A stretch of DNA of 64,000 bases from positions 124,001-188,000 of the forward strand of contig JAKAGZ010000001.1 in the NCBI GenBank assembly GCA_021815365.1. Reading direction: 5' to 3'. The translations under genes and the position numbers were made by a program. The DNA comes from Bacteroidota bacterium (GTDB lineage Bacteria; Bacteroidota; Ignavibacteria; Ignavibacteriales; Ignavibacteriaceae). Of the stretch, positions 28,308 through 32,118 are shown in pieces (within the stretch, counting starts at the first letter, position 1; each line of letters begins with the position of its first letter). The notes under the pieces are model-generated. The model ran no database searches, was not told where the DNA came from, and was given only the letters and a program-made list of their open reading frames with translations.

Positions 28308-28861
28308 TTTCTTTATCTTATTAAATTCTCTTTTATAAAGATAATAAATTCGTAATTCAGATTAATGGTTTGATTAGGTATTGATTCCTGATACCGGATA
28401 CCAGATGAAAAAAGTTTTATATTTGCCCGCTGCTGTGCGTGTATAAAATTTGAGATAAGAAGCTTGTTCTCCTTCGCTGAAGCTCATACGAAATCAGAAA
28501 TTTCTTTTGGAATTTTCGGGATAACTTGCTAAGTTACTGACAGAATATCAGAATTGATAGCTATACGAAGGGACGCACCTTCATATTTTGCCTTTCCAGA
28601 GACGGGGTGCCTGCAGAAGCCCGCCAGGTCTCGGCGACCTGCCGAGGTTGACGGATGATGAGGATAAATAAATGATAACAGACTAAAGAAGAAGAGAGGG
28701 TTTGTACTTACGTTTTAAAGAAAGCATTAGGCGATAGAAGCCTTTTAGACTGAAATATATAAAGATAATATATATGAAACTGCAAGCATATATACTCACC
28801 TTAGCTAATAATCCTGTGCAGTATAATTAATAGTTCGCTGTATTAATAAAGGGAGTAGTAA
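28308..28861. other. Non-coding stretch before the accessory island
   Basis: 554 bp without a supportable gene. A GC-rich patch near 28608-28655 (gcccgccagg, ggcgacctgccgagg) is made of imperfect palindromes like those elsewhere. The sequence becomes AT-rich from about 28700, marking the edge of the accessory island. No terminator or tRNA-like structure was recognised. Confidence 0.5.
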
Positions 28862-29566
28862 ATGAAAAAAATAATCTGTCTATTTTTATTTTCAGTAATA
28901 CTTGTTGGTTGTGCTGGTAGCCTTTCCGTAATTCCTTCAGTAAAACAACAATATAAAAATTATAGACTAAATGATTCATTAAAAGCATCAATTGGGGATC
29001 CTATTATTGAAGTCGAAAAAGCATATGTAAAAGATGCTTATGTTGTTTTGTTTGATTACCAAACTCCTACTCTTGGGTTATTCGGTTCGCAACAAATGTT
29101 TTTAAAAAAGGGAGATCGATTTACAGCCGTAGCTTTTGTTCCAAGTAATCCGGACGCAGTTTTAGTGCGTGAAGAAGGCCCTGAAAAGAAATCAGTTTTT
29201 ATTCACATCTATCCAAATGGCAAAATCAATCGTGGTTGGTGTCTTGGAGATGGAACAGTTCCCGTTCAAGGTTCCTGGACAAAAGAACAACTTTTTGCTA
29301 AATCAGATAATCCAAGTAGAACAGAAAATTCTTTCCGAGCTCAAATTATATATTCTGGAATCAGTGGCAATACTATTAAAGCTGTTTATCGAGAATATTC
29401 AGATAATTATGCACGTCCGGCATTTACGCAAGAACTTCAATATAATCTTGACGAAAGCAATATAATTTCTTACAAGAGTATAAAGATCAAAATTATTAAA
29501 GCAACTAATTCAGAAATAGAATTTATAGTTTTAGAAGACGGCGGATTACCTTGGTTAGCTAAATAA
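28862..29566 (+). CDS. Putative lipoprotein of unknown function
   Basis: 234 residues. The N-terminus MKKIICLFLFSVILVGCAGS is a lipoprotein signal peptide with the lipobox LVGC, so the protein is probably lipid-anchored in the envelope. The remainder shows no motif I recognise; it has scattered hydrophobic strands (DAYVVLFDYQTPTLGLFG) and a WCLGDGTVPVQGSW segment. An AGGGAG-like site precedes the ATG. It is the first gene of an AT-rich island with toxin-antitoxin genes, so horizontal acquisition is plausible. Confidence 0.7.
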   Translation: MKKIICLFLFSVILVGCAGSLSVIPSVKQQYKNYRLNDSLKASIGDPIIEVEKAYVKDAYVVLFDYQTPTLGLFGSQQMFLKKGDRFTAVAFVPSNPDAVLVREEGPEKKSVFIHIYPNGKINRGWCLGDGTVPVQGSWTKEQLFAKSDNPSRTENSFRAQIIYSGISGNTIKAVYREYSDNYARPAFTQELQYNLDESNIISYKSIKIKIIKATNSEIEFIVLEDGGLPWLAK

Positions 29567-29885
29567 TTAATCCAAAATTTTGCAATAGGAAAATTTGCGC
29601 TGCGGGCCGACAAGCCATAAGTCATTTTGACAAAAAGAATTTGTAAGACAGTTATTCTTCAAAACCAAACATCAAAATTATTCAGGGCTTGTCGGGGTTA
29701 ACCCCGATAAAACGGACGCTGTTTTGCATTTGGCGTTTTTCTAATTAGTAGTGTTATTATTCTGTGTAATGTTATTATGTAAAGTAGTTCTGTTAAATAA
29801 ATGTTTTTAAGATTATTGACGGTTGTTTAATGGGTGGTATCAATGTTATGTGGTGACTGCTTATTAGCGATGTCGTTATACGCAG
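29567..29885. other. Structured non-coding segment with possible attC end
   Basis: 319 bp without a gene. CCGACAAGCC near 29610 pairs with GGCTTGTCGG near 29690, and TCGGGGTTAACCCCGA (29692-29707) is a perfect palindrome. The segment ends in GTTATAC (29875-29881), five bases before the next start codon, like the right-hand core of an integron attC site. A matching left-hand core was not found. Confidence 0.45.
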
Positions 29886-30461
29886 ATGAATACTGATGAT
29901 AAATATAAAAGAGATTCTATAGAATTATTTCTTCTTAAAACAGATGAAATAAGAAATTCTAATTATTTTGATTTCGTTTCAAAAAATGAGATTAGCTATT
30001 CTATTAAGGGAAGTATTGATAATGAAACAAGTATGGAAACAAATCATCCAGATTTAGAATCCATTAAGAGTGTTGTTTTAACAATTAGATTATTCATTCA
30101 AGACAATGATAGAATATCAATAAGAAAAATTGCATCACTTATGCGAGAACTAAATTTTAACAATGAATTTGTTGAAAGATATAATCGTGGAAGAAATAAT
30201 TTAAATGAATTTCTGGATTCAGTAGCTGTAAATTATAACGGTGAAGATTTATCTTTTCGAAAAATTATTGATGTTTTTTTCTATGGTTATTTTACACATC
30301 TTGAAGAAAAGCAGTATGATATTTATAGAAAATGGAAAAATGATAAATATTTTTATAAATCCAAATTAAATGATTTGCTATGCGCTTTAAACACTATTAT
30401 AAGGTTTTTGCTGTTTTTTGAAAAACAAATACGCATTGAGTTTGAGAAAAACTGCGTATAA
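29886..30461 (+). CDS. Hypothetical protein, possible integron cassette gene
   Basis: 191 residues, no family recognised. The composition is rich in Asn, Lys, Ile and Phe, and a largely helical fold is suggested by stretches such as SIKSVVLTIRLFIQDNDRISIRKIASLMREL and FYKSKLNDLLCALNTIIRFLLFF. The start codon lies five bases after a GTTATAC core, and the stop codon is embedded in the GTATAAC core of the next attC-like site. This is the tight packing usual for integron cassettes. Lower GC than the flanking housekeeping genes. Confidence 0.65.
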   Translation: MNTDDKYKRDSIELFLLKTDEIRNSNYFDFVSKNEISYSIKGSIDNETSMETNHPDLESIKSVVLTIRLFIQDNDRISIRKIASLMRELNFNNEFVERYNRGRNNLNEFLDSVAVNYNGEDLSFRKIIDVFFYGYFTHLEEKQYDIYRKWKNDKYFYKSKLNDLLCALNTIIRFLLFFEKQIRIEFEKNCV

Positions 30462-30560
30462 CCTTAATCAACCGGGCGCCGTTTTCAAAGCGAGATAGCT
30501 GTTCCCGTCTTCATTTCACTTCACCGGGCAGAGGGGTGAAAAGCCACACCGTTATACCGC
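30454..30560. other. Putative attC-like site 1 (107 bp)
   Basis: Bounded by GCGTATAAC (30454-30462) and GTTATACCGC (30551-30560), which are inverted complements apart from one base. Inside, CTTCACC and GGGTGAA form a hairpin. A 29-bp stretch (30501-30529) recurs exactly at 31356-31384 in the next site. Size and end structure fit an attC site; the L boxes pair imperfectly, so the call is tentative. Confidence 0.5.
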
Positions 30561-30652
30561 AATAATATTATTATGGGCTGACTTGACATATTCCTGATGC
30601 TTTTTTACTTTTAAAGCGTGTCTATAAGGCACACATAAAGATAAATTGATAA

Positions 30653-30931
30653 ATGAAGTATTTTGCTTGGGACGAAGATAAAAATAATCTCTTAAAAGAA
30701 ACAAGAAATATATCTTTTGAAGAGATTGTATTATCACTTTCAAATAACAAATTATTAGAAATAGTTGAACATCCCAATAAACAGAAATATCCAAATCAAA
30801 AAATGTTTATTGTTGAAGTTAGAAATTATGCATATATAGTTCCGTTTGTTGAAGATGAAAAAAAATATTATCTGAAGACAATATATCCAAGTAGAGAAGC
30901 AACTAAAAAATATTTAAGCAAAGAGGAATAG
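30653..30931 (+). CDS. BrnT-like toxin
   Basis: 92 residues. The start MKYFAWDEDKNNLL matches the BrnT-type opening (aromatic-x-WDxxKN), followed by ISFEEIVLSL, and the C-terminus TIYPSREATKKYL echoes the family's ISARxATKxE motif. BrnT-like proteins are small RNase toxins. The gene is followed after 2 bp by a ribbon-helix-helix antitoxin, the normal order. A TTGACA box near 30582 and an imperfect GTGT..ACAC repeat (30618-30634) suggest its own promoter and autoregulation. Intact. Confidence 0.8.
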   Translation: MKYFAWDEDKNNLLKETRNISFEEIVLSLSNNKLLEIVEHPNKQKYPNQKMFIVEVRNYAYIVPFVEDEKKYYLKTIYPSREATKKYLSKEE

Positions 30932-30933
30932 CA

Positions 30934-31203
30934 ATGAAGTATTTAGATAAAGAAGAAAAGGAATTAATAGAATCTTACAATAGAGATGAATGGAAACCTA
31001 TTAAAAAGAAAGACCAAAAAACCTATGTTAAAGCAGCAAAAGAAAGTATAGCTAAAAGCAAAAGGATTAATATTCGTTTAACTCCAAAAGATTATCACGA
31101 TATACAAGTAAAAGCAGTAGAAGAAGGAATTCCCTACCAAACATTAATTTCCAGTATAATTCATAAATATAACAAAGGGAAGTTAAAGTCTACACAAACA
31201 TAG
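30934..31203 (+). CDS. BrnA/CopG-like ribbon-helix-helix antitoxin
   Basis: 89 residues. The C-terminal half has the ribbon-helix-helix pattern SKRINIRLTPKDYHDIQVKAVEEGIPYQTLISSIIHKY typical of antitoxins of BrnT-like toxins. The N-terminal half (YLDKEEKELIESYNRDEWKPI) probably binds the toxin. It begins 2 bp after the toxin stop, and an attC-like core begins 5 bp after its own stop. Confidence 0.82.
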   Translation: MKYLDKEEKELIESYNRDEWKPIKKKDQKTYVKAAKESIAKSKRINIRLTPKDYHDIQVKAVEEGIPYQTLISSIIHKYNKGKLKSTQT

Positions 31204-31208
31204 AGCAT

Positions 31209-31412
31209 CGGTATAACCTCAACCGGACGGCGTATTCGCACTCAGCATTTTGTAATTTTTGGCTTTGATGTTCCGAGTCGGCAGTCTTGCTCAAGGTAGT
31301 TCGTTCTAAGAAACATTTTTAGTAATTAAAAGTAGTCTCTCTATTCGGTGTAGTTGTTCCCGTCTTCATTTCACTTCACCGGGCGGACGGGCGAAAAGCC
31401 AAGCCGCTAAGC
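31209..31412. other. Putative attC-like site 2 (204 bp, enlarged)
   Basis: Starts CGGTATAAC (31209-31217), the exact complement of the right core of site 1, then CTCAACCGGACGGCG, similar to site 1. It ends with the 29-bp shared block (31356-31384), GCGAAAAGCC and GCTAAGC (31406-31412), a one-base variant of a GTTAAGC core. About 100 bp of extra sequence lies in the middle, so it may be two sites or a site with an insertion. Confidence 0.42.
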
Positions 31413-31416
31413 ACAA

Positions 31417-31629
31417 TTACTTTTGCCAGTGAATATTTGGTTTAAAATTGTTTTGTGCACATTCCCTTAAATACATATTCATTAAATTCTGATAAGGGAT
31501 GTCAATTTCAGCAGCTAGCTTTTTGAAATATTCAACAGTATCTTTTTCGATACGGATTGAAATCTGTTTTTTAAGTTTTTTTATGTAAGGATTTTTAATG
31601 GAATCACTGAAGTCATATTCTTTTTTCAT
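31417..31629 (-). CDS. BrnA-like antitoxin (partner toxin broken)
   Basis: 70 residues: an N-terminal MKKEYDFSDSIKNPYIKKLKK, then a ribbon-helix-helix QISIRIEKDTVEYFKKLAAEIDIPYQNLMNMYLRECA. Same family as 30934-31203 but distinct in sequence. It lies 1 bp after the stop of the disrupted BrnT gene. The orientation is opposite to the other cassette-like genes. The stop codon is 4 bp from the attC-like core at 31406. Confidence 0.8.
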   Translation of the reverse strand: MKKEYDFSDSIKNPYIKKLKKQISIRIEKDTVEYFKKLAAEIDIPYQNLMNMYLRECAQNNFKPNIHWQK

Positions 31630-31630
31630 T

Positions 31631-32118
<488 letters not shown>

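Follow-up and report, generated by a model that had tools for sequence, protein, structure and literature searches.

Integrons are bacterial platforms for the collection of genes. Among the described systems, the closest counterpart of the locus reported here is the CALIN, a cluster of attC sites lacking an integrase (Cury 2016; IntegronFinder 2.0, PMC9024848). A second is the sedentary chromosomal integron of Treponema, whose 'atypical' layout (PMC3607928) has intI transcribed toward attI, in the direction of the cassettes, and whose attI R box is GTTAGGT. A third is the off-target insertion of cassettes at attG sites (Loot et al. 2024, as cited in PMC12901181). The initial annotation of this DNA placed it in a phylum where integrons are little described. 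Complete integrons of Chlorobi and Ignavibacteriae are already on the IntegronFinder 2.0 list (PMC9024848), and intI is present in 26 of the 59 genomes searched, namely that of the window and those of 58 relatives from the same family and order.

The window, by which we mean the whole 64-kb stretch analysed, is C98:124001-188000, inside a 193,626-bp contig, and its array lies away from the assembly edges. We conclude that the region 28690-31412 is very probably a relic chromosomal integron that has lost intI and retained attI and three cassettes. A leader, an intI stub, attI, and the three-cassette array follow one another along the locus. As in CALINs, where two or more consecutive attC sites accompany small accessory genes and toxin-antitoxin genes and no intact intI is nearby, there are three clustered attC sites here (within 1.7 kb, by our own models rather than IntegronFinder's), and the only integrase remnant in cis is a 17-codon stub (28700-28753). 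Unlike a complete integron, the locus has this stub in place of an intI gene beside attI and the cassettes; unlike a CALIN, it keeps a recognisable attI and the stub, so that loss of the integrase can be read from the sequence.

The attC sites of the array

All three attC sites lie on the plus strand. The attC of cassette 1 (29697-29881) has R'' altered to GTTAACC and an intact R', GTTATAC; that of cassette 2 (30456-30557) has both R boxes, GTATAAC and GTTATAC, intact; and in that of cassette 3 (31211-31412) the R' core is mutated to GCTAAGC and does not fit GTTRRRY. With R'' altered in the first site and the core mutated in the last, decay has therefore reached the recombination sites too, and the mutated crossover core of the last site may make the toxin-antitoxin cassette hard to excise.

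The initial annotation had drawn attention to these cores, and most of its details stand. The GTATAAC at 30456-30462 does overlap the TAA stop codon (30459-30461) of the 191-aa reading frame, but the GTTATAC at 29875-29881 ends four, not five, bases before the ATG at 29886. The identical block said to be shared by two sites is 30 bp long rather than 29, and belongs to a 59-nt repeat in two attC 3' halves (30496-30554 and 31351-31409) with 88% identity, the 30 identical bases being consecutive. The span originally given, 29875-31412, is too short at the left: it leaves out the intI stub, attI, the cassette 1 gene, and, from 29697 on, the 5' part of the cassette 1 attC, all of which lie upstream.

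To describe the sites we assembled related ones from C34 and C19, found by a DNA search of the organism's own genome, together with those of the integrase contig, C35, for a total of eight full sites that were aligned by their ends. A leave-window-out HMM, built from attC sites on other contigs only, was scanned over the whole 64 kb with nhmmer. Its sole significant matches were the three window sites (the next match had an E-value of 0.57), and the cores are therefore not a product of chance. The cassette 3 site was matched at full length (31209-31412, E 2.5e-28), the cassette 1 site, also detected by cmsearch, at 29699-29883 (E 2.5e-7), and the cassette 2 site at 30493-30562 (E 6.6e-9) and 30451-30492 (E 8.8e-5), with a figure of 4.9e-13 also obtained for the site. 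A covariance-model search of the array, using our own model in place of IntegronFinder's, likewise matched the window attC, with 63 bits for the cassette 2 site, which is itself included in the model.

The eight-site alignment contains the R''/R' and L''/L' helices and a conserved extrahelical base. As drawn, 82.4% of its cells pair, compared with 30-45% when the partners are slid, and seven pairs are altered on both sides. The fold with an extrahelical base is thus present in the alignment; as a single strand it is clear for the C34 site and weaker for 30456-30557, in which the L''/L' pairing is imperfect and the free minimum-energy structure differs from the classical attC fold. Free folding does not establish every attC site, and an Rfam search at the three sites gave no attC match. 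Judged by sequence, the three window sites are integron attC sites.

We also tested attC models across phyla. When 80 loci surrounding integron integrases from many phyla were searched with the covariance model R1, it gave 23 matches, of which 20-21 were on the minus strand and upstream of intI, the classical divergent layout. A second model, R2, was made solely from attC sites of other phyla found beside IntI. On C34, C35, and C19 its matches span the sites in full (E-values down to 8e-8), and in related species it matches the arrays that follow intI; in the window it gives a single, weak match (30454-30560, 14.3 bits, E 0.45). R2 finds one site only in a whole-genome search and more on short loci, a shortfall probably caused by the loss of long-looped sites at the first filter. 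Short intergenic repeats do occur in this genome, and one could propose that the sites are ordinary dispersed repeats that merely resemble attC. We consider this extremely improbable, as the sites close cassette-like genes, fit attC models across phyla, and coexist with attI and intI.

Cassette contents

Cassette 1 carries a gene for a 234-aa putative lipoprotein (28862-29566, plus strand) and cassette 2 a gene for a 191-aa orphan protein (29886-30461, plus strand), which has homologues in 2 of the 58 related genomes at 24-29% identity. Cassette 3, also on the plus strand, encodes a BrnT-like toxin (30653-30931; Pfam BrnT_toxin, E 1.4e-5, below the curated cut-off) and a CopG/RHH antitoxin-like protein (30934-31203; Pfam CopG_antitoxin, E 6e-4, below the cut-off). 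The orphan gene and this one pair are array contents, but the second toxin-antitoxin pair that had been counted with them is not: the BrnA/CopG antitoxin gene and BrnT-like toxin frame at 31417-31912 (minus strand) lie after the last attC and outside the array, and the BrnT-like frame has an internal stop codon. Cassettes in the other arrays of the genome include a BglII-like restriction-modification pair, a HEPN-type protein, an HNH protein, HigBA, and a ParE-type pair, contents that are typical of sedentary integrons.

An intact integron in the genome and in relatives

It had been noted that no integrase is in the window. This is true of an intact gene, but the genome itself does encode one: a genome search for intI returned one integron integrase above the TIGR02249 family cut-off of 265 bits (C35:1615-2598; 420 bits, E 6.7e-126). 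In an alignment with 14 relatives it shows the residues conserved in tyrosine recombinases as well as the insert specific to IntI. Its integron has its own attI (AATTAATAG/TTAGGT), followed by attC sites, and the first cassette after this intact attI (L011 2799-4265) is a methyltransferase and BglII-like restriction enzyme pair. The nearest named IntI proteins are from a Bacteroidetes MAG (79%) and then Ignavibacteria bacterium RBG_16_34_14 (66%); AlaRS identities to the same two are 78% and 71-84%, respectively, and on these grounds the genome probably belongs to the class Ignavibacteria. The stretch of C35 that leads from a cytochrome c gene to intI also contains (L011 690-1150) a long run of imperfect short repeats that translate as EMPRKDAEM-like units.

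In the relatives, intI, attI, and the attC array follow in that order, all on one strand. The DNA just 3' of intI in most of them ends in a core, (A/T)(G/T)TAATAG/TT, after which come same-strand cassettes. With the attI core directly 3' of intI, the integrase gene is thus directed toward attI, the arrangement seen in Treponema; the intact integrons, here and in the relatives, share this layout and the cassette direction with the Treponema integron (PMC3607928), and the GTTAGGT R box of attI is shared as well. They differ from it in host, which here is Ignavibacteria/Bacteroidota, and in that a single genome contains more than one attI type and numerous loci devoid of intI.

The attI site and the intI stub

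The window attI (28768-28837, plus strand) heads the array and was identified with a profile built from the DNA that follows intI on its 3' side in six related species (nhmmer E 7.2e-9). Profiles of such regions fall into types, of which the window represents type A, and it is 82% identical over 61 nt to locus L014. Its crossover point would lie between 28833 (G) and 28834 (TT).

Upstream of attI, at 28700-28753 on the plus strand, is the decayed 3' end of intI, encoding VCTYVLKKALGDRSLLD and a stop, the last 17 codons of the gene. Translation of 28679-28753 gives QTKEEERVCTYVLKKALGDRSLLD and a stop, an IntI C-terminus with its authentic stop. The stub has a BLOSUM score of 43, against 24 for the next best of 5126 stop-anchored 17-mers from the fetched loci, and an nhmmer profile of the intI 3' end of relatives matches at 28699-28773 (E 5.9e-4); the stub alone is weak in tblastn (E 0.07). 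The strength of this identification is its position together with the exact stop. The intI 3' end and attI stand in the order and on the strand seen in relatives, with about 55 nt of the spacing between them missing. The initial annotation had spoken of an isolated attC cluster without integrase. The attC sites and cassette array are upheld, but the isolation is not supported: the array has an attI at its head and, before that, what remains of intI, and we therefore read it as an integron that has lost its integrase.

Could the cassettes instead have been placed here by the C35 integrase at an attG-type secondary site, at a locus that never had an intI? Off-target insertion is a proposed origin of CALINs (PMC8618304), an intact intI is present in trans, and attG insertions, so far as they are summarised in the article citing them (PMC12901181), put cassettes at chromosomal loci distant from the active intI, as is the case here. 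TAATAG/TT motifs are moreover common in the genome by chance. The left end of the window array, however, departs from such insertions as described there, in that it is a genuine attI adjoining intI remains: about 70 nt of attI homology, with an intI 3' stub and its stop directly upstream, are not expected at attG, and the attI is not of the type of the resident IntI. We regard off-target insertion as very unlikely. The core motif itself was tried as a signature of such insertion and dropped, with fewer exact TAATAG/TT matches genome-wide (30) than for the reversed control (45); the core alone is therefore uninformative, and only the longer attI homology counts.

Orphan attI loci and a shared leader

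Besides the window, model and DNA searches identified about seven further attI loci without intI in this genome. Type B attI is found on C19 (two places), C17, C64, and the end of C98, which overlaps the start of C5; type C is found on C34, with a degenerate copy on C73. None of the type B and type C loci of the genome has an intact intI. The resident C35 IntI has an attI of another type than the window's.

A leader repeat (28492-28690, plus strand) was found by a DNA search of the genome to be common to the window and six other loci (C96, C17, C19, C64, C5, and C73), and all seven copies are beside attI or attC; one additional match of 28 bp occurs elsewhere (C98:99320). In the 58 relatives, the repeat was not found beyond short matches that are probably due to chance. 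We considered whether the leader corresponds to the DNA that precedes intI in relatives and rejected this, there being no homology. On C96 (L046 4300-4430) the leader is joined straight to an attC 3' half with no attI, a truncated array. A distinct repeat of roughly 25 bp (ACCAGAATTGGTCACTATGTGAAA) is scattered genome-wide on many contigs, for example at about 11450-11480 of L013 (minus strand).

The sharing of the leader by seven attI or attC loci suggests another history, in which leader and attI spread around the genome together as one block, by copying or mobilisation, once intI had been lost, and the window locus received a platform that already lacked intI. The C19 locus, which looks chimeric in that its stub starts as the window's does and is followed by a different attI type, is consistent with this. 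Against it, neither a transposase nor a target duplication nor a boundary on the right was identified, and only one type A attI turned up in the loci fetched from the genome. We consider block mobilisation unlikely. We give somewhat less credence still to the idea that the single IntI serves the roughly eight dispersed orphan attI platforms, of three types and several with a shared leader, capturing or shuffling cassettes in trans at many addresses.

Proposed history of the locus

In the reading we prefer, that of a relic integron, an IntI would have captured the lipoprotein gene, the 191-aa orphan gene, and the BrnT-like/CopG-like pair by attI x attC recombination. The order of events would be capture followed by intI loss: intI would later have been deleted and have decayed until a stub of 17 codons was all that remained of it, beside the leader, attI, and three cassettes. 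Cassettes 1 and 2 may still be substrates of the C35-encoded IntI in trans. No strain with an undecayed ancestor of the window locus was found, and comparison of two related genomes at alaS revealed a sigma/anti-sigma pair there rather than a clean empty site.

Integrons in Ignavibacteriae are already known; what is less expected is that a single genome has so many orphan attI sites. The origin of intI-less attC clusters may lie in integrase loss, off-target insertion, or rearrangement, and it is hard to tell because usually only the attC sites remain. At the window locus attI and an intI stub survive, and integrase loss is therefore directly readable. A single genome with several loci at differing stages of decay, alongside one intact integron, forms a natural series that is suited to testing how such clusters originate and whether the surviving IntI acts on the orphan attI sites.
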